DNA from: a bacterium
Lineage (GTDB): Bacteria; Gemmatimonadota; Gemmatimonadetes; Gemmatimonadales; Gemmatimonadaceae
Direction of reading: 5' to 3'
DNA: 64,000 nt
Assembly: GCA_021813725.1 (NCBI GenBank)
Contig: JAKAJN010000003.1
Coordinates: forward strand, 1 to 64,000
Shown one piece after another: positions 2,969 to 41,347 of this stretch (position 1 is its first letter; each line of letters begins with the position of its first letter). The notes under the pieces are model-generated. The model had not been told where the DNA came from. It saw only the letters and a list, made by a program, of their open reading frames with translations, and searched no databases. The position numbers and the translations under genes were made by a program.

Positions 2969-2978
2969 GGGGGACGCA

Positions 2979-3008
2979 GACGGGAGACGGGAGACGGGAG
3001 ACGGGAGA
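2979..3008. repeat. Period-7 tandem array (GACGGGA x4)
   Basis: Four perfect copies of GACGGGA plus GA, ending 11 nt before the plsC start codon. On the coding (minus) strand it reads as TCCCGTC repeats in the 5' leader, where a ribosome-binding site would be expected. Confidence 0.95.
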
Positions 3009-3073
3009 TAACCACGGGGACGATAGAAGCGGCCAACGGCCGCTGTAAGGGTAACGAATGCAAAGCGCATCCG

Positions 3074-3108
3074 CCGTCTACCGTCCACCGTCCACCGTCT
3101 ACCGTCTT
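3074..3108. repeat. Period-7 tandem array (CCGTCNN x5)
   Basis: Five units in exact 7-nt register: CCGTCTA, CCGTCCA, CCGTCCA, CCGTCTA, CCGTCTT. It lies in the leader of the plus-strand gene starting at 3135. With the 2979-3008 array it brackets the divergent promoter region, each array presenting its pyrimidine-rich strand as mRNA sense for the gene it precedes. Confidence 0.95.
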
Positions 3109-12267: not shown

Positions 12268-13458
12268 CTACCACCGCAACCAGACCGTGCGCGCCTTGCC
12301 CTTGCGCACCACCTTCAGCTTCAACGACCGGTCGTCGGAGTCACCGATCATCCGCTGGAGCATGCGGGCATTCAGCACCGGCCGGCCACTGGCCTCGACG
12401 ATCACGTCGCCGCCCCGCAGGCCAGCGGCGGCGGCCGGCAACTCGGGAAGAACACGCTGGACAAGGAGTCCGGCATCGGCACCGGTGATGTCCTTGAAGT
12501 CGTCGGTGAGCGTGGTCAGTTGGGCGCCGGCCACGATGCTCGAGTAGCCGGAGATGGCCACCGGTGGCGGCGCGTCAAATGTCCAGACGGCCGGTGCGGG
12601 GGGAGCCGGTGGCGCGACCGGCGCGCTCGGCGACGGGGTAGCCGGCGCGGACGGCCGGACGAACGTGAACGCCCGCCGCGATTGTGTCGCGTGCGTACCG
12701 CTGATCGCCGGACGCATGGGCGAGAAAGAGAGGTCGAGGTCCGTGCACTCGTCGCCGAAGCCCTCTGGACGCTTCTGCACCAGCACGGTGACGGTGGGCT
12801 CGCCGCCCTCTCGGGCCAAACGCACCGGCAGTTTGCGCCCGGGCACCAACAGACTCGAGAGCACGACATCGCGTCCCACCACGTCCTGACCACCCAACGC
12901 CAGAATGCGATCGCCGCGTCGCATGCCCGCGCGCTCGGCCGGTGATCCGGTCTCCACCGAGATGATCTCGGGGGGCTCCTCGAAGTGGTACACCTCCGGG
13001 CCGTTCCCCTCGCGCTTCACCGATCCCGAAATGTTGAAGGTGACGCCGAGGTATCCATCCGGGGCATGCTCGGTCGTCTTTCGGTTCGTGCAGGCGAGCT
13101 GGATCTTCGACATCAGCTGCAGGTTGCTCTGGGCGATCTTCTGCAACTGCTCCTCGAGTGCCATCCGGCGCGCCACGTTGACGGACGTCGCGCCGTATTC
13201 GCGCAGCGCCATCCCGATGCGCTCCTCCAACGCGCGCGACTTGGCGAGCGAGCGCACGAGACTGTCGAGGCCGTCGAGGACCAGCACCACCTTCATGGGG
13301 TTCGCGGAATCCACGCGCACCGTCACGGTGCGGCTGCGCGGCGGCGACGTGGATTGCTGCGCCGTTGCAACGCTCGCCGCCACGCCCACGGCGCCCAGCG
13401 CACCCAGCGCCAGCGCGGCGACTCCACTCCGTCGAATCGAACTTGGAAGAGCATTCAT
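12268..13458 (-). CDS. Secreted protein with two PDZ domains
   Basis: 396 residues from the ATG at 13458 (MNALPSSIRRSGVAALALGA), with a signal peptide ending near ATAQQ. Two PDZ domains are visible: about 145-245 (GYLGVTFNISG, VETGSPAERAGMRRGDRILAL) and about 305-396 (LLVQRVLPELPAAAAGLRGG, DVIVEASGRPVLNARMLQRM), joined by a Pro/Ala-rich linker. Before the first PDZ lies a helical, possibly coiled-coil segment (SLVRSLAKSRALEERIGMAL). No protease domain or catalytic triad is present, so it is probably a periplasmic adaptor or sensor. It is downstream of sigma and anti-sigma genes on the same strand and may take part in an envelope-stress circuit or be a target of it. Confidence 0.8.
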   Translation of the reverse strand: MNALPSSIRRSGVAALALGALGAVGVAASVATAQQSTSPPRSRTVTVRVDSANPMKVVLVLDGLDSLVRSLAKSRALEERIGMALREYGATSVNVARRMALEEQLQKIAQSNLQLMSKIQLACTNRKTTEHAPDGYLGVTFNISGSVKREGNGPEVYHFEEPPEIISVETGSPAERAGMRRGDRILALGGQDVVGRDVVLSSLLVPGRKLPVRLAREGGEPTVTVLVQKRPEGFGDECTDLDLSFSPMRPAISGTHATQSRRAFTFVRPSAPATPSPSAPVAPPAPPAPAVWTFDAPPPVAISGYSSIVAGAQLTTLTDDFKDITGADAGLLVQRVLPELPAAAAGLRGGDVIVEASGRPVLNARMLQRMIGDSDDRSLKLKVVRKGKARTVWLRW

Positions 13459-13495
13459 TGCATCAACCCTGAAAGTCCTTCTGCCATTTCTTGAC

Positions 13496-13528
13496 TGTTG
13501 TTTCTCTGTTGTTTCTCTGTTGTCGCTC
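13496..13528. repeat. Period-11 tandem array (TGTTGTTTCTC x3)
   Basis: Three 11-nt units in exact register (third copy TGTTGTCGCTC) in the gap between the anti-sigma stop and the PDZ protein start. On the transcribed strand it reads as purine-rich ACAACAGAGAA-type repeats upstream of the PDZ gene's AGAAGGA-like ribosome-binding site. Confidence 0.9.
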
Positions 13529-13532
13529 TGCT

Positions 13533-14237
13533 CTAGTATCGCTCCAGCGCCTGCTTCGCCGGCAACGCCGCCTGGTACTGCTTGAGCGTCGCCTCGCGCG
13601 CCGCCATCGCCGAGAGGTAGTACTGGTTGAGCACTGGATCCTGCGGGGCCTGATAGAGTGCGGCCCGCGTGGATGCGACGATGTTGTCGAGCGCCGTCAG
13701 TCGCGCGCGGTACGTGTTGACGTTCAATCCGATGAAGTGCGACGTGGTGTCCTGCGCCGCGAGATAGGCCGCGGCGTCGGAGTACTGCTGCTGGGCGGAG
13801 GTGAGCACCTGCATCGCCGCCTGCGGCGACTCGAATCCCGGCGCCGACGCGACGGGCGCTGCCGCGCCGCCGTTGGTACCCGACGCCACGCGCGGCAGCA
13901 GGTCGAACCGGGCGGTCAGGCGCCCCGCCAGCACGCTGCCGGCGACCAGCACCAGCCCGGCCGCGATCCGCAACATCCATTGCGCGCGCGTGGCGCGCGG
14001 CGCCGGGAGTGGCGCGGCAGAGATGATTCCTTCGGCCTTCAACATCGCCCCGAGCGAAGCCCAGTCGTTGAGCGGCGCGGTTTCGCGGGGCACCTCGCTC
14101 ATGGCGATGCGGACGAGCCGTCGGTGCGAGGCCAATTCGGCCGTGCAGGGCGCGCAGGCAGCGAGGTGCGTCGCCTCCTCGGGCGTCGCCGTCTCGTCCA
14201 CCAAGGCAGCCAGTCGTTCAGGAGAGATGTGCTGCAT
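13533..14237 (-). CDS. Anti-sigma factor with ZAS zinc finger
   Basis: 234 residues from the ATG at 14237. The N-terminus has the ZAS pattern H-x3-C-x2-C (THLAACAPC, about residue 28), which chelates zinc and clamps ECF sigma factors. One transmembrane helix follows at about 90-107 (MLRIAAGLVLVAGSVLAG). The C-terminal periplasmic part (about 130-234) is helical and Ala/Gln-rich (SAQQQYSDAAAYLAAQ), without a recognised sensor domain. The start overlaps the sigma gene end by 20 bases, the classic sigma/anti-sigma pair, so the two should be co-expressed in fixed ratio. The signal is unknown. Confidence 0.85.
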   Translation of the reverse strand: MQHISPERLAALVDETATPEEATHLAACAPCTAELASHRRLVRIAMSEVPRETAPLNDWASLGAMLKAEGIISAAPLPAPRATRAQWMLRIAAGLVLVAGSVLAGRLTARFDLLPRVASGTNGGAAAPVASAPGFESPQAAMQVLTSAQQQYSDAAAYLAAQDTTSHFIGLNVNTYRARLTALDNIVASTRAALYQAPQDPVLNQYYLSAMAAREATLKQYQAALPAKQALERY

Positions 14238-16358: not shown

Positions 16359-16721
16359 ATGACTGATCCACAGAATCCGTCCGCCACGCCATCGCCCACC
16401 GACACACCGTCCAGTGGCGCGGATGAGGTCACGGAAGACCTCGTCAAGCTCGCGCTACGCCGGGTCAAGGATCCCGAACTCAACCTCAACATCGTGGACC
16501 TTGGCTTGGTCTACGGCATTCAGGTGGAGGGCACGAGGGTGATGGTGGACATGTCGCTGACGTCACCCGCCTGCCCGTCGGGGCCGGAGTTGGTGCACGA
16601 TGCCACCACGCAGGTGCAGGCGATTCCGGGCGTGACGCACGCCGAGGTGAACATCGTCTGGTCGCCGCCGTGGACGCCGGAGCGCATCGAGCCGCGAGTG
16701 CGGGTCTATCTCGGGTTCTGA
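16359..16721 (+). CDS. SufT/MIP18-family metal-sulfur cluster assembly factor
   Basis: 120 residues. After a Ser/Thr/Pro-rich 22-residue N-terminus comes the DUF59 (MIP18) core: VKDPELNLNIVDLGLVYGIQ, then SLTSPACPSG with the single conserved cysteine, and EVNIVWSPPWTPERI near the end. This family helps mature Fe-S proteins (SufT, PaaD and eukaryotic CIA2). In many genomes sufT sits inside the suf operon; here it is about 23 kb away from it. Its 3' end runs straight into the palindromic repeat shared with the convergent RNase D gene. Confidence 0.88.
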   Translation: MTDPQNPSATPSPTDTPSSGADEVTEDLVKLALRRVKDPELNLNIVDLGLVYGIQVEGTRVMVDMSLTSPACPSGPELVHDATTQVQAIPGVTHAEVNIVWSPPWTPERIEPRVRVYLGF

Positions 16722-16933
16722 AACGGCAACTGCTCACCACGGAGGCACGGAGAACACGGAGATACACGGAGAACGGCAACGGCAAACACTTGATGGAACG
16801 ACAGTGCGCCACGCAGGCTTCAGCGTGGCACGCGCCGTTCCTCCAAGAAGTTGTAGTTCTCCGTGTATCTCCGTGTTCTCCGTGTCTCCGTGGTGCGTAG
16901 TTGTGGTGAGTAGTTGTGGTGAGCAGTTGCCGT
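16722..16933. repeat. Long inverted CACGGAG-type repeat between convergent genes
   Basis: Arms 16735-16774 and 16856-16895 match over 39 of 40 bases, built of irregular CACGGAG units (GGCACGGAG, AACACGGAG, ATACACGGAG). Outer arms 16722-16738 and 16918-16933 continue the pairing. They are interrupted on the right by two direct copies of GTAGTTGTGGTGA. The whole fills the gap between the SufT-like stop and the RNase D stop, so the RNA from either side would fold into a long stem with an 80-nt loop. It is probably a repeat element that also serves as a terminator. Confidence 0.9.
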
Positions 16934-21842: not shown

Positions 21843-24124
21843 GCGCGCCCAAGGACTCGGGGAAGCGTTTCGTTCAAACGACGGTCGAGGTGGAAGGGCG
21901 CACCGAGACGCGTGTCGTCGAACTCCCGGCGTTCGAACCGGCACCCTGGGGAGCCGACGCGCCACTCGCCATCGTCGGCACAAGTCCGCCCCGAGTCGAT
22001 GCGCGGGAGAAGGTCACGGGGCGAGCCCGCTACACGGCCGACGTCGTTCGACCCGGAATGCTGTACGCGGTAATCGTGCGCTCGCCCATCGCCAAAGGCA
22101 CGGTCACCAGCCTGGACCTGGAGATAGCGCGTGGCATGCCCGGCGTCCGCGGTGTGATGGGCCCGGGTGATGCGCCGGCGGCCACGCGTCTGTTTCGCCG
22201 CGACATCTCGTATGCGGGACAGTCCATCGCCGCAGTCTGCGCCGAGCGTCTGCTCGACGCCGAGCGCGCGGCGCGGTCGATTGCCGAGTCGCTGATCATC
22301 GCACCAGCGCCGCACGCGGTCACCGCCGAGGAAGCGCTGGCGAACGACGCGCCGCGCGTGCGGGACACCGGCAACGCCACCGAACCAGACGTCGTCACGC
22401 GCGGCGATGTCGCGCACGGCCTCACGATGGCCGATGTCACGCTGACGCGCGAATACCGCACACCAGTCGCCCTGCATTCGGCGCTCGAACCCCACGGCGC
22501 CGTCTGCGAGTGGAATGGCGACCAGCTCACGGTGTGGGAAAGCACGCAGGGCATTTTCCGCGTGCGCAGCGATGTGGCCAAGGCGCTCGGCGTTGCACAA
22601 TCGCAGGTGCGCGTCATCAAGGACTATATGGGCGGCGGTTTTGGCGCCAAGAACAGCGCGGGGGCGCACACCTACACCGCAGCGCTCTTCGCGCGCGCCC
22701 TCGGTGCCCCGGTGCGCTGCATCAACGACCGGCGTGGCGAACAGACCGACACCGGCAACCGTCCCGCGACCATTCAGAAAGTCACCATCGCCGCCACGCG
22801 CGACGGGCGACTGACCGCGCTCGCCCTCGACGCCATCATCCCGCTCGGCATCGCCGGCTGGGAGGGCGGTCCGGCACAGATTTTCCACGAGCTGTACAGC
22901 TGCCCCAACGTTCGCACGTCGGAAACGATGGTGTACATCAACGCCGGCGGGATGCAGGCATTTCGCGGGCCCGGCTACGTGGAAGGCGCGTTCGCGCTCG
23001 AAGGAGCGATGAACGCGATGGCGCGCGCTCTCCAGATGGACCCCGTCATCTTCCGGCAGAAGAATCTCGCCACGCTGGACGAACGCACCGGCCGCGCCTT
23101 CAGCGGCAACCGGCTGGGGGAATGCTACACCGAGGGCATGAAACGCTTCGGCTGGCCCTCCACTGTCCACCGTTCACCGTCCGGCGTCGCTCGCGTGAAG
23201 CGCGGCCTCGGCGTCGCCGCGCAGACCTGGCCCACCGGCGGCGGCCCGCCGTCCTACGCGAATGTGCGGATCAACAGCGACGGTTCCGTGGACGTGCTCG
23301 CCGGTACGCAGGACCTCGGCACGGGGTCGCGCACGATACTCGCGCAGATTGCCGCCGAGGCATTGGGCGCGCGACTCGACAGCGTGCGCACGGTGATCGG
23401 AGATACGGAGCGACTGCCGTACACCGGAAACTCGTGGGGGTCGATGACCACGCCCAGTGTTGGCCCCGCCGTGCGCATGGCTGCGGAGGAAGCAAAATCG
23501 CATTTGCTTGACGCCGCGGCACAGATGCTGGATGTGCCGGTCGAACGCCTCGGTGCGCGCGATTCGCAGGTGCTGTTGGACGGCGTGCCGGCCCGGTCGT
23601 TCTCCGACCTCTGTCGCGCACTCGGCAGCGTGCAGATTGTCGGACACGGCTCGCGGGGCCCCAACCCTGAACTGGCCGTCGTCACCGTGGGCGCGCAGTT
23701 CGCCGAGGTGGAAGTGGATGTCGAAACCGGCGTGGTGAAAGTGCGGCGGATCGTCGCCGTGCACGACGCCGGACGCATCATCAATCCGGCGCTCGCCGAA
23801 AGCCAGTTGCACGGCGGCATCATTCAGGGAATCGGCTACGCGTTGTTCGAAGAGCGGCACATCGATCCCGCCACCGGCATGACTCTCAACGCCAACTTGC
23901 ACGACTACAAGGTGCCGACGATGGCCGACATTCCGGCCATCGACGCGTCATTCCTGCCGGGCGCTGATCCGGCGGCCAATCACGTTGGCGCGCGCGGCAT
24001 CGCCGAACCACCCATCATTCCCACCGCGCCGGCCATCGCGGCCGCGGTCGCCGATGCGCTGGGCGTGGAGGTGTGCGCACTCCCGCTCACCCCGTGGCGC
24101 GTACTCGGCGCGCTGGCGGAATAG
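21839..24124 (+). CDS. Molybdenum hydroxylase large (molybdopterin-binding) subunit, PaoC/xanthine dehydrogenase type
   Basis: 761 residues from a GTG overlapping the small-subunit stop. Features of the aldehyde oxidase / xanthine dehydrogenase large subunit: KVTGRARYTADV near the start, GGGFGAKN (Mo-pterin loop, about residue 265), GGMQAFRGPGYVEG (about 375), AQTWPTGGG and, near the end, the catalytic glutamate in ARGIAEPPI (about 720). With the small and FAD subunits it should oxidise an aldehyde or N-heterocycle. A four-unit heptamer array (23161-23188) is part of the coding sequence and gives the extra loop STVHRSPSGV (about 441-450). A five-unit array starts 4 bases after the stop codon. 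Confidence 0.92.
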   Translation: MSAPKDSGKRFVQTTVEVEGRTETRVVELPAFEPAPWGADAPLAIVGTSPPRVDAREKVTGRARYTADVVRPGMLYAVIVRSPIAKGTVTSLDLEIARGMPGVRGVMGPGDAPAATRLFRRDISYAGQSIAAVCAERLLDAERAARSIAESLIIAPAPHAVTAEEALANDAPRVRDTGNATEPDVVTRGDVAHGLTMADVTLTREYRTPVALHSALEPHGAVCEWNGDQLTVWESTQGIFRVRSDVAKALGVAQSQVRVIKDYMGGGFGAKNSAGAHTYTAALFARALGAPVRCINDRRGEQTDTGNRPATIQKVTIAATRDGRLTALALDAIIPLGIAGWEGGPAQIFHELYSCPNVRTSETMVYINAGGMQAFRGPGYVEGAFALEGAMNAMARALQMDPVIFRQKNLATLDERTGRAFSGNRLGECYTEGMKRFGWPSTVHRSPSGVARVKRGLGVAAQTWPTGGGPPSYANVRINSDGSVDVLAGTQDLGTGSRTILAQIAAEALGARLDSVRTVIGDTERLPYTGNSWGSMTTPSVGPAVRMAAEEAKSHLLDAAAQMLDVPVERLGARDSQVLLDGVPARSFSDLCRALGSVQIVGHGSRGPNPELAVVTVGAQFAEVEVDVETGVVKVRRIVAVHDAGRIINPALAESQLHGGIIQGIGYALFEERHIDPATGMTLNANLHDYKVPTMADIPAIDASFLPGADPAANHVGARGIAEPPIIPTAPAIAAAVADALGVEVCALPLTPWRVLGALAE
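23161..23188. repeat. Period-7 array inside the Mo hydroxylase large-subunit gene
   Basis: Four heptamers in register: CACTGTC, CACCGTT, CACCGTC, CGGCGTC. They are of the same kind as the intergenic CCGTCCA arrays but lie in the reading frame without disrupting it. Confidence 0.75.
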
Positions 24125-24127
24125 TCC

Positions 24128-24162
24128 CCGTCTCCCGTCTTCCGTCTTCCGTCTCCCGTCTC
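24128..24162. repeat. Period-7 tandem array (CCGTCTN x5)
   Basis: Five units in exact register filling nearly the whole gap between the large-subunit stop (24124) and the cupin ATG (24168). The pyrimidine strand is mRNA sense and no Shine-Dalgarno sequence is present. Confidence 0.95.
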
Positions 24163-24574: not shown

Positions 24575-26206
24575 ATGAAGCGCCTTCTCGTCCTTCTCGT
24601 CCTTCTCGTCCTTCCCGCCGCACTGGGCGCGCAGGATCTCAATGCCACCGCCGACCGGATCTTCGCGGCGTGGAACAGCACGCATACGCCGGGGTGCGCG
24701 GTGGGGGTCGCGCGTAATGGCGCGACGATCTTCGCCAAAGGATACGGCATGGCCGATCTCGAGACCGGCACGCCGATCACGCCGCTCACGATCCTCGAGA
24801 GTGGATCGGTCGCCAAGCAGTTCACCGCCACGGCGGTGCTATTGCTGGCCGGCGAGGGGAAGCTTCGGCTCGACGACGACGTGCGGAAGTACATCCCGGA
24901 GCTGCCGTCGTACGGACGTGTCATCACGATTCGTCACTTGCTCTCACACACCAGCGGACTGCGCGAGTGGAGCAATCTCGTGGCCGATCAGGGGTATCCG
25001 CGCGGCACGCGGGTGACCACGCAGGCCGACCTGCTGGCCATCATCGTTCGGCAGAAGGCACTCAACTATCCCGTCGGCGACTTCTACTCCTACACGAACT
25101 CCGGATTCGCGCTCCTGCCGACCATTGTCGAACGCGTCAGCGGCATTCCGTTCGCGCGTTTCAGCACTGAGCGCATCTTCCGGCCGGCCGGGATGACCGA
25201 CACCCGCTGGCGCGACGACTACACGGCGCTGGTGCCACGGCGAGCGCAGGCGTACTCACGCCGGGCCGACGGCTGGCATCTCGAGATGCCGTTCGAGAAC
25301 GTGCACGGTCCCGGCGGACTGCTCACCACGGTCGGCGACTGGCTCACGTGGAACAACGCGTTGAACGCGCGGGCCTTCGGCGCGGTCAGTGATTCACTGC
25401 TCAGCCGCGCCACGCTCACCAGCGGCCGGCAGATTCCGTACGCGATGGGGATGATCAACGGCACGTACCGCGGCACGCCCGAGTGGCAGCATAGCGGCAG
25501 CACGGCCGGCTACAGCACCTTCCTCGCCCGGTATCCCAATGCCGGATTGTCCATCGCCGTGATGTGCAACGCCGCGGGGGCGCCTGCCACTGCGTACGTG
25601 CGACAGCTCGCGGACGCGCTGATCCCTGACCTGGCGCCGCTTCCCACGTTCGACACCGTCACCGTCGATGCGAGCCGTCTTGCACGGTACGTCGGCGTCT
25701 ATCGCGACAATCGCACGCACGATATCTCGGAAATGTTCGTGGACCGCGGGCAGCTGCGCGTCCGCGGCGGCGCGCCGCTTCGGGCGCTGCGCGACGGCGA
25801 TTTCCTGATGGGCGCTGCCTCCCGCCTGCAGTTCGTCACCGCCGCCGATGGCACGCCGACCGGTGTGCGCATCTTCGCCCCCGATGGCGACACGCTGAGC
25901 TGGACCTTCGAGTCGGCGGGGCGCTGGCTCGCCTCCGAAACGCAGCTGCAGGCGTATGCCGGCCGCTGGTATCAACCGGAGATCGACGCCACGTGGACTG
26001 CGACCGTGCAGAAGGGGGCACTCGTGATGGAGCTCCGCCCCGGCACGCAGTTCACGCTCATCCCGGCGTACGGAGATGCCTTCGAAGCCGGCCCGTACGG
26101 CAGCATCTGGTTCACGCGCGACAAGAGCGGCGCGGTGACCGCGATGCATGTGGGGGCGGGGAGGGTGTGGGAGCTAGGGTTTGCTAGAGAGAAGAAGCAG
26201 AGATAA
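24575..26206 (+). CDS. Class C beta-lactamase-family serine hydrolase with C-terminal lipocalin-like domain
   Basis: 543 residues. The signal peptide is built on repeated CTTCTCGTC codons (LLVLLVLLVL) and ends near ALGAQ. Catalytic boxes: S-x-x-K in SGSVAKQF (about residue 87), Y-x-N in YSYTNSGFAL (about 172) and HSGSTAG (about 307). The last 170 residues, with RYVGVYRDNRTHDI and YAGRWYQPEID, resemble the DUF3471/lipocalin-like domain found after this fold in secreted esterases and D-aminopeptidases. The final residues EKKQR and the TAA stop are written by the first unit of a period-11 repeat array. Location is periplasmic or secreted; the substrate is unknown. Confidence 0.88.
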   Translation: MKRLLVLLVLLVLPAALGAQDLNATADRIFAAWNSTHTPGCAVGVARNGATIFAKGYGMADLETGTPITPLTILESGSVAKQFTATAVLLLAGEGKLRLDDDVRKYIPELPSYGRVITIRHLLSHTSGLREWSNLVADQGYPRGTRVTTQADLLAIIVRQKALNYPVGDFYSYTNSGFALLPTIVERVSGIPFARFSTERIFRPAGMTDTRWRDDYTALVPRRAQAYSRRADGWHLEMPFENVHGPGGLLTTVGDWLTWNNALNARAFGAVSDSLLSRATLTSGRQIPYAMGMINGTYRGTPEWQHSGSTAGYSTFLARYPNAGLSIAVMCNAAGAPATAYVRQLADALIPDLAPLPTFDTVTVDASRLARYVGVYRDNRTHDISEMFVDRGQLRVRGGAPLRALRDGDFLMGAASRLQFVTAADGTPTGVRIFAPDGDTLSWTFESAGRWLASETQLQAYAGRWYQPEIDATWTATVQKGALVMELRPGTQFTLIPAYGDAFEAGPYGSIWFTRDKSGAVTAMHVGAGRVWELGFAREKKQR

Positions 26207-26376
26207 AGCAGAGATAAAGCAGAGAGAAAGCAGAGAGAAAGCAGAGAGAAAGCAGAGAGAAAGCAGAGAAGAAGCAGAGAGAAAGCAGAGGCAGCGAGGG
26301 CACAGCGCCGCCACCACAGCAGATCGTCTATCTGCTTTCTCTCTGCTTCTTCTCTGCTGTCTCTCTGTCTTCTCTC
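26189..26376. repeat. Convergent pair of period-11 tandem arrays
   Basis: Left array 26189-26287: nine 11-nt units (GAGAGAAAGCA, GAGATAAAGCA, GAGAAGAAGCA). Right array 26333-26376: four units of the reverse complement (TGCTTTCTCTC type). The arms can pair with each other around a 45-nt spacer. Each array overlaps the 3' end of the gene running into it, so both encoded proteins carry an EKKQR tail from the same repeat. Confidence 0.95.
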
Positions 26377-26636
26377 TTCCTATACACCGTCGCCGTTTTC
26401 CCAATCGTCTGAATCACCTCGGCGCCGAGTGCCGCGGCGAGATCGTGCGCCGCGGCCTTGACGCTCACGCCGGCGGTGCGGTTCAGCGCGATCTTCACCA
26501 GCTCCCGCGTGCGCAGGGCGTCGTCCAGTGACTGGATGACCTGTTGTGTGACGCCGTCCTTGCCGACGTGCACCGTGGCCTGCAGTTGATTGCATTCGGC
26601 GCGCAACGCGGCGCGCGCCTTGCTGGACAGTGCCAT
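26328..26636 (-). CDS. yhbY: YhbY/CRS1-family RNA-binding protein
   Basis: 102 residues from the ATG at 26636. The CRM fold is clear: LSSKARAALRAECNQLQATV, VHVGKDGVTQQVIQSLDDAL, HELVKIAL-like (TRELVKIALNRTA) and ALGAEVIQTIGKTATVYRK, including the GKDG loop. YhbY associates with pre-50S ribosomal subunits in the cytosol. Canonical proteins end soon after the VYRK strand; here about 16 more residues (from KREDRE to the end) are encoded by the period-11 repeat, which also provides the stop. Confidence 0.9.
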   Translation of the reverse strand: MALSSKARAALRAECNQLQATVHVGKDGVTQQVIQSLDDALRTRELVKIALNRTAGVSVKAAAHDLAAALGAEVIQTIGKTATVYRKREDRETAEKKQRESR

Positions 26637-36963: not shown

Positions 36964-38076
36964 ATGCGTCTGCATCACGTGACCGTCTGCATTATCGCCG
37001 CCGCGCTTGTGGCGCCCGTCGCGGCACAGTCACCGGAGCGTTCGAAGCCCGTGCGCTACGTCCTCTCCATCGGTGACTACCCCAACGTCACTGGCCTGCG
37101 CATCAACTTTCGTGATCGCGCGCTCGGTGATGTGCGCGGCGCCAACGTCACCATCTGGTCGCCGTATGACGATTCGGGCGGCTCGGTGCGCGGGATTGCG
37201 CTCGGATTGCCGCTCACCGCGGCGGGCTCCATTCACGGTATCGCCACCGGCGTGTTCGGGGCCGGAGCAAGCCGCGACTTGACCGGCATCGGCATCGCAC
37301 CAGTCGGACTCGGCGCGGGTGGGCGACTGAAGGGGATCGCGATCGGGGGCGTCGGAGTCGGGGGCGGGGGCGATCTTGAAGGGCTCGCCGTCGGCACCAT
37401 CGGCGCCGGACTCGGTGGTGACGCACATGGCATCCTGCTCGGAGGCGTGGGCGCGGGCGTCGGTGGCAGTGTGCGCGGCCTCGCGCTCGGCGGCATTGGC
37501 GTCGGAGCCGGCGGACGCGTGCGTGGCATTGTCGGCGGCGGAATCGGCGCCGGAGCGGGCGGCGATCTCACGGGCGTGGCGTTCGGCGGCATCGGTGTCG
37601 GCGCCGGAGGCGATGGCCGGGGTATTCTTGCCGCGGGAGTCGGCGCGGGCGTTGGCGGCAACTTCGACGGAATCGCGTTCGGCGGTATGGGCGTGGGCGT
37701 CGGCGGACGGCTGCGCGGCCTCGCCATCGGTGGCCTTGGCGTAGGCGCCGGAAAGAGCATCGATGGCGTGGCCATCGCCGGTCTTGGCATCGGTTCACCG
37801 ACCATTCGAAAGCTCGCGATTGCGCCGGTGATTGGCGCCAACCGGATGCACGGCGTGATGCTTGCGCCAGCGCTGGCGCGCCTCGAGAAGGGCGGTCGCA
37901 TGCGTGGCGTCTCCGTGGCGACGGTCAATGACATGCGAGGCCAGCAGACCGGACTGACGATCGGCTTGATCAACTACGCGCGGGAGCTCGACGGCATGCA
38001 GATTGGCGTGATCAACATCGCACGCAATGCGAGCGTGAAGTTCCTGCCGATCGTGAACTACCACAGGGGAAGATGA
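36964..38076 (+). CDS. Secreted glycine-rich protein with 13 tandem 16-residue repeats
   Basis: 370 residues, signal peptide ending near AAQS. After a short N-terminal part (about 30-72) come 13 tandem units between residues 73 and 279, all 16 residues except the first (15). The consensus is roughly G-x-hydrophobic-x-G-(I/L/V)-x-x-(G/A)-G-(I/V/L/M)-G-(V/A)-G-x-G; examples are GRLRGLAIGGLGVGAG and GSVRGLALGGIGVGAG. The remaining 90 residues (GLTIGLINYARELDGMQIG, VINIA) resemble LA_2272-type surface-repeat proteins. The alternating Gly/hydrophobic pattern suggests a beta-roll or solenoid on the cell surface. No enzyme motif. A 13-mer DNA array begins immediately after the stop. Confidence 0.8.
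   Translation: MRLHHVTVCIIAAALVAPVAAQSPERSKPVRYVLSIGDYPNVTGLRINFRDRALGDVRGANVTIWSPYDDSGGSVRGIALGLPLTAAGSIHGIATGVFGAGASRDLTGIGIAPVGLGAGGRLKGIAIGGVGVGGGGDLEGLAVGTIGAGLGGDAHGILLGGVGAGVGGSVRGLALGGIGVGAGGRVRGIVGGGIGAGAGGDLTGVAFGGIGVGAGGDGRGILAAGVGAGVGGNFDGIAFGGMGVGVGGRLRGLAIGGLGVGAGKSIDGVAIAGLGIGSPTIRKLAIAPVIGANRMHGVMLAPALARLEKGGRMRGVSVATVNDMRGQQTGLTIGLINYARELDGMQIGVINIARNASVKFLPIVNYHRGR
37180..37800 (+). repeat. 48-nt coding repeats (13 units)
   Basis: The DNA counterpart of the 16-residue protein repeats. Units are diverged at nucleotide level, so the array is old and protein-selected rather than a fresh DNA expansion. Confidence 0.85.
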
Positions 38077-38154
38077 CGGATCGGGAACGCGGATCGTGAT
38101 CACGGATCATGATCACGGATCATGATCACGGATCATGATCACGGATCGCGATCA
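38077..38154. repeat. Period-13 GATC-rich tandem array
   Basis: Six 13-nt units in register, starting at the base after the stop codon: one degenerate, then CGGATCGTGATCA, three CGGATCATGATCA and CGGATCGCGATCA. Together with flanks it puts 12 GATC tetramers in the 99 bases from 38079 to 38177. Each unit contains TGATCA or a near-palindrome, so it can also fold. Confidence 0.95.
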
Positions 38155-38186
38155 CGGATGGGGATGCACGATGGATCCCAGACGCA

Positions 38187-39767: not shown

Positions 39768-41197
<1,430 letters not shown>

Positions 41198-41198
41198 C

Positions 41199-41347
41199 GA
41201 CGGCAGACTGCAGACGGGAGACGGACGACGGGAGACAAGAGATCTTCTCCGATGCACCGAATCCCGCCGCTGCGCTGATCCCCCGTTCCCTGTTCCCTGT
41301 TCCACGTCCCTCGTCATCCGTCTTCCGTCATCCGTCATCCGTCATCA
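41199..41347. repeat. Two inverted period-7 arrays between sufB and sufC
   Basis: Left array 41199-41240: six units beginning GAC (GACGGCA, GACTGCA, GACGGGA, GACGGAC, GACGGGA, GACAAGA), starting one base after the sufB stop. Right array 41285-41347: nine units each beginning GT (GTTCCCT x2, GTTCCAC, GTCCCTC, GTCATCC, GTCTTCC, GTCATCC x2, GTCATCA). Both keep perfect 7-nt register. The arms are partly complementary and could fold in the mRNA. Confidence 0.95.

Follow-up and report, generated by a model that had tools for sequence, protein, structure and literature searches.

Stop-anchored period-11 repeat arrays in a Gemmatimonadaceae genus: a putative shared terminator between yhbY and a serine hydrolase gene that encodes the C-terminal tail of YhbY

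Two convergent arrays between a serine hydrolase gene and yhbY

The window, a stretch of 64,000 nt, is contig C172 of a metagenome assembly of 3.0 Mb in 237 contigs (G000, hereafter the window genome). Two caveats apply throughout: the repeat sequence comes from a metagenome assembly, and genes are codon-usage calls of this analysis and not published annotation. The locus consists of the following features.

24575..26206, + strand: serine hydrolase gene, beta-lactamase family PF00144 plus DUF3471 (domain matches)
26189-26203, + strand: last residues of the hydrolase, EKKQR, within the array
26204-26206, + strand: TAA stop of the hydrolase, within the array; unit variant AGAGATAAAG
26195..26290, + strand: 5' arm with 8.7 copies of the unit AAGCAGAGAGA; rich in purines on the sense strand of the hydrolase gene
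26291..26326, no strand: loop between the arms, 36 nt
26327..26377, - strand: 3' arm with 4.6 copies of the unit in inverted orientation; rich in purines on the sense strand of yhbY
26328..26636, - strand: yhbY, CRS1_YhbY (PF01985), 102 aa (domain match and orthologues)
26331..26378, - strand: YhbY tail encoded by the array, KREDRETAEKKQRESR (residues 87-102), where the family has the conserved ..NPEIxGKKGDxPPWRR
26328..26330, - strand: TAG stop of yhbY, unit variant GCAGATAG

Both arrays that the initial annotation had seen in this gap were recovered with TRF, as 8.7 copies of AAGCAGAGAGA (94% match) at 26195-26290 and 4.6 inverted copies (77% match) at 26327-26377. Identity at a lag of 11 nt is 0.94 at 26195, and the next best value within the 64 kb is 0.53 at 13456. 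The two genes are convergent. The hydrolase ends in ...GFAREKKQR, and its TAA is created by a G-to-T variant of the unit AAGCAGAGAGA; an end EKKQR-stop in the array is correct, although the stop does not lie inside the first unit as proposed but spans the junction of units 1 and 2. On the other strand, the PF01985 domain covers residues 3-86 of the 102-aa YhbY, which ends in ...VYRKREDRETAEKKQRESR with the TAG at 26330-26328. The sense array is free of stop codons in all frames, so array-coded tails are easily made.

The predicted RNA fold of the locus has an energy of -92.7 kcal/mol (z -6.2) on one strand and -95.7 kcal/mol (z -6.35) on the other. The 28-bp helix of the fold joins the 3' arm to the inner stretch of the 5' arm, and there are outer helices besides. 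A search of Rfam returned nothing above the gathering score and only miRNA-like hairpins below threshold, and a known RNA family was rejected on this ground.

The conserved YhbY tail and the variable hydrolase end

YhbY ends in ...YR(Q/H)NPEI(E/K)GKKGDxPPWRR in eight of ten congeners. The remaining two are G005, in which the gene is cut by a contig end, and G006 (locus L076), in which GDPPPWRR is still readable behind a premature TAG; the latter is an independent loss of the conserved tail. All 28 other YhbY proteins of the family that we read carry a PPW, APW or PAW tail, which is absent from the window genome. A search for the native tail motif in the rest of the window genome's assembly gave no match, and a misassembly that moved the tail elsewhere was rejected accordingly. 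By this comparison, the family-conserved tail (..GxxPPWRR) is lost and 16 array-coded residues stand in its place in the window genome alone. The initial annotation was right about the number of array residues; it had called them a gain, and they are rather an exchange, 16 residues for a native tail of 17.

The same annotation held that the repeat had replaced both original 3' ends. Comparison with homologues supports this for YhbY, whose family tail ends in PPWRR and whose array tail is unique to the window genome, but not for the hydrolase. Congener hydrolases end variously in FTR, FQRVK, FTRAPQPTGAR, FGRKTTEKQQRDNR or FQRETTERQQRNNR, each directly before the stop, and short array-coded tails occur in three lineages (G000, EKKQR; G001, KTTEKQQRDNR; G008, ETTERQQRNNR). 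By this comparison, the array adds a few residues (~5 in the window genome) beyond the hydrolase domain, an extension rather than a replacement. Among the 36 array-adjoining gene ends of the window genome, YhbY is the only one with more than a few residues in an array. Array writing of C-termini is the exception; nearly all other arrays start after the stop.

Array family and unit types in the genus

The 251-nt array region gave 90 matches in ~41 clusters of the window genome's assembly, and a two-unit pattern gave 98 forward and 69 reverse matches there, with 0 for the reversed control. The statistics reported here come from the ~41 targeted clusters and from samples of 464 kb of G000 and 400 kb of G001. 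Among 298 Gemmatimonadota genomes, a CAGAG period-11 pattern of three units was abundant in the window genus only, with 0-2 matches in genomes outside it; it occurred 165 times in G000, 146 in G005, 95 in G004, 78 in G001 and 67 in G008.

Two unit types were counted separately. The AAG type, CAGAGARAAAG, had 133 matches in G000, 28 in G004 and 0 in the other nine congeneric genomes. The CAA type, CAGAGARACAA, had 79-294 matches in six congeners, 30 in G000 and 0-2 in four, counts for which the reversed control also matches arrays because the unit is nearly mirror-symmetric. Going by these matches, the unit type differs between species of the genus and has evidently turned over. Where arms of the window genome are mixed, the remaining CAA-type units lie nearer the gene (p = 0.014), which suggests that they are the older type and is as expected if the inner units are those renewed. 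Within the window, a short CAA-type period-11 array at 13495-13523, 9 nt after the stop of the gene 13533-14201 (- strand), is a remnant of the congener unit type. One locus was assembled twice, at the head of contig C9 (L009) and the tail of C217 (L042); the two copies overlap by 518 nt at 98% identity and differ by one 11-nt unit (7 vs 8). The difference may reflect a population in which the number of units varies, or it may come from the assembly.

Arrays and hairpins at gene ends

The arrays are purine-rich on the sense strand. At 34 of the 36 array-adjoining gene ends of the window genome, the start of the array falls between -11 and +15 nt relative to the stop. A gene end counted as array-adjoining within 35 nt of an array, and what matters here is how the starts crowd around zero, not where this limit was set. 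In the G000 and G001 samples, arrays occurred in 8 of the 110 gaps between convergent genes, 13 of the 456 between co-directional genes and 1 of the 109 between divergent genes; the numbers are small, but the distribution fits an association with gene 3' ends. Two-arm hairpins also stand in co-directional gaps (L019, L028, L031, L034, L035, L042), and for three clusters (L022, L033, L038) the gap was called divergent. Single arrays often lead into a GC-rich hairpin with the last unit as the stem base (L010, L014, L020, L032, L040). At L020 (C70:22876-23503), the arms are ~500 nt apart, each beside the stop of its own convergent gene, and the left arm has its own GC-rich hairpin.

The purine arm came first in all 20 two-arm clusters, in which arm order was not a selection criterion, and in 9/9 two-arm clusters of the unbiased samples. 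This order gives a U/C-rich 3' side in both directions. Arms were more alike within one locus than between loci (p = 1e-4) in a test on 18 two-arm loci that had been preselected as purine-first and are not usable for arm order; a mirrored unit order between the two arms was marginal only. The hairpin at the distal end beat all 30 shuffles at 21 of 27 array-bearing gene ends of the window genome, with a mean stem of 20 bp vs 10 bp in shuffles. In the 10 nt past those 21 stems, 49% of letters are T; the hairpin of the window locus has no clean U-tract, and its 3' arm is U/C-rich. A clear hairpin was lacking at ~6 of the 27 ends, including the short co-directional gaps L009, L016, L029 and L030.

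The window holds repeats of other kinds as well. A period 13/26 array of the unrelated unit GATCACGGATCAT at 38072-38159 overlaps the stop of a gene ending at 38076. Between convergent genes with stops at 16721 and 16933, a CACGGAGAA array and its inverse GTTCTCCGT (16738-16892) make a second array-built hairpin with a period-9 unit, followed by a period-13 array at 16890-16929. Arrays of the heptamer family AGACGGG/CCCGTCT follow two stops, at 24127-24162 (2 nt behind the stop at 24124) and at 41199-41236 (1 nt behind that at 41197), and an inverted pair of this family occupies the gap 2978-3107 between divergent genes. These genomes also have arrays anchored at stops with periods of 7, 10 and 13, and a tie of period 11 to the pitch of the A-form helix was dropped for this reason.

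The orthologous gap in congeners

yhbY and the hydrolase gene are convergent neighbours in the congeners read, and nine of their gaps hold a hairpin with a stem of 7-16 bp. The stems differ in letters while pairing is kept (CAGAGGGCGTCGC..GCGGCGCCCTCTG, CAGAGGGTGACTCC..GGGGTCACCCTCTG and GAGAGGGTGGCACC..GGTGCCACCCTCTC), in a hand-aligned comparison of the nine cores and not of the array arms. Period 10-11 arms flank the hairpin in G001, G002, G004, G008, G009 and G010, and in most congeners these arms are of another unit type than that of the window. There is little or no array in the gaps of G006, G007 and the second copy of G003. The yhbY loci L073 (G009) and L074 (G003:C53) appear to be the same sequence, and a further yhbY of G003 (L079) differs from it; the G003 assembly may be contaminated. 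In the window genome, the GC core forms no stem and the 28-bp helix consists of array units; a degraded remnant of the congeners' GC-rich core may survive in the 36-nt loop.

A proposed shared terminator with arms grown by slippage

The tail-to-tail position, the strong hairpin on both strands and the pairing kept in congeners, together with the crowding of array starts at stops, the single arm order and the match of arms within loci, lead us to favour, with moderate confidence, the following reading: one bidirectional terminator of the intrinsic type serves both genes, its two arms are the arrays, which grew by slippage, and a deletion fused yhbY to its own arm. More generally, the 11-letter repeat hairpins adjoining stop codons are probably transcription terminators. 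The ancestral state in the genus would be a short, mostly GC-rich hairpin between yhbY and the hydrolase gene that served as a bidirectional terminator. Purine-rich units of period 10-11 with CAGAG, the same letters as at the base of the ancestral hairpin, would then have been multiplied by slippage in both arms, so that arrays begin right at stop codons. In the window genome, the unit type would have turned over from the CAA type to the AAG type, and a later deletion at this locus would have taken out the conserved tail of yhbY, probably together with half of the GC core, and so brought the gene up against its own terminator arm. As the sense array offers no stop in any frame, YhbY now ends in a polar tail read from the array, and TAG or TAA arises from variants of the unit. 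Slippage growth of the arms is supported by the 7 vs 8 units at the twice-assembled locus and by the edge position of the older units. The arrays, their hairpin potential, the pairing kept in congeners, the loss of the tail and the unit turnover between species are observed; slippage and the deletion are inferred from comparison of sequences, and termination activity and tolerance of the new YhbY tail are presumed.

Several results count against this reading: the missing clean U-tract at the window locus, the marginal mirror order, and the hairpin-less arrays and divergent-gap clusters, which do not fit a pure terminator role. A functionless satellite, in which neutral slippage products are tolerated just past stops and the hairpin is a by-product of two arrayed gene ends, would account for single arrays without a hairpin, for the varying number of units and for the several unrelated unit types (period 7, 10, 11 and 13) near stops; with one array per convergent gene, the two-arm structure arises automatically. 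We nevertheless regard it as rather unlikely, in view of the two-arm hairpins in co-directional gaps, the match of arms within loci, the congener core pairing kept through letter changes and the single arm order. The sense purine orientation, which is found even where there is no hairpin and also in short co-directional gaps, could alternatively mark an mRNA 3'-end element, bound by an RNA-binding protein or blocking 3' exonucleases, with termination elsewhere. A long 3'-end helix would indeed slow exonucleases, but a fixed binding site is hard to reconcile with the drift of unit letters from one close species to another, and we give this idea little credence.

Two kinds of known dispersed element were rejected. 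Insertion of a REP- or MITE-like mobile palindrome between the genes would explain why palindromic copies are scattered by the dozen through intergenic DNA near 3' ends, where REPs lie too (PMC3733652). It is very improbable: the REP-associated tyrosine transposase (Y1_Tnp, PF01797) has no match in the window genome (assembly 94% complete; some REP families also lack one), neither GTAG nor CGTC occurs in the unit AAGCAGAGAGA or the locus sequences examined, unit number and loop differ at every locus, and the orthologous gap is occupied in most congeners. Terminators recruited from a DNA uptake signal, on the model of Neisseria and Pasteurellaceae, would likewise show a short lineage-specific motif in inverted pairs in tail-to-tail gaps (PMC1852404), and the window genome has one match to the ComEC family, which is not specific to uptake-signal-type competence. 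Copy number decided against this reading, as 165 three-unit matches in ~40 clustered loci stand against at least 1,000 dispersed copies; the tandem arrangement and the motif difference between sister species also make it extremely unlikely. The terminator reading leaves the likeness of units across dozens of loci unaccounted for. A broader and more speculative proposal, which we regard as rather unlikely, is that these are genus-specific self-renewing terminators, whose period 10-11 arrays, at dozens of gene ends, would have grown out of the stem, stay complementary at each locus and be homogenised across the genome, with entire species changing unit type and conserved protein tails sometimes overwritten.

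Significance and comparison with known systems

At this locus, non-coding repeats at a gene end have clearly taken the place of a protein tail that is conserved in the family. With the orthologous gap available from eleven related genomes, one can ask whether tandem duplication can enlarge a terminator and how a short repeat stays uniform over dozens of loci. In annotation, protein tails of the KQRESREKAER or TTEKQQRNNR type in this group should be read with caution, as putative terminator DNA translated as protein. In the open-access literature, we found no account of stop-anchored or terminator-building tandem arrays in Gemmatimonadota.

The nearest known system is the group of uptake-signal (USS/DUS) terminators of Neisseria and Pasteurellaceae, in which a lineage-specific motif of 9-11 nt forms hairpins as inverted pairs enriched between convergent genes (PMC1852404). 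A lineage-specific short motif, inverted pairs placed tail-to-tail and one preferred configuration are common to both (PMC1852404), whereas here there are tandem arrays of 2-10 units per arm, ~40 loci instead of at least 1,000 copies, and a unit type that changes between sister species. REP/BIME elements are likewise intergenic, palindromic, repeated and mostly near gene 3' ends (PMC3733652), but they are a fixed palindrome of 20-40 bp, in contrast to the variable-number tandem arms described here, which lack the GTAG/CGTC tag in a genome without a RAYT-type transposase. Tandem arms, low copy number and unit turnover set the arrays apart from both USS/DUS and REP. The TAACTGA direct repeats of Beggiatoaceae are also short, tandem, mostly intergenic and occasionally over gene ends; they point at start codons with a period of 7, their forward unit has stops in all frames, and they form almost no inverted pairs (PMC4679880), whereas the present arrays stand at stop codons with a period of 11, are stop-free and have inverted pairs. 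Borg tandem repeats resemble them in being fast-evolving and A-biased and in creating new, probably disordered protein segments (PMC9879509). In-ORF Borg units are divisible by three (PMC9879509), unlike the 11-nt unit described here, which is confined to the C-terminus and has an inverted partner.
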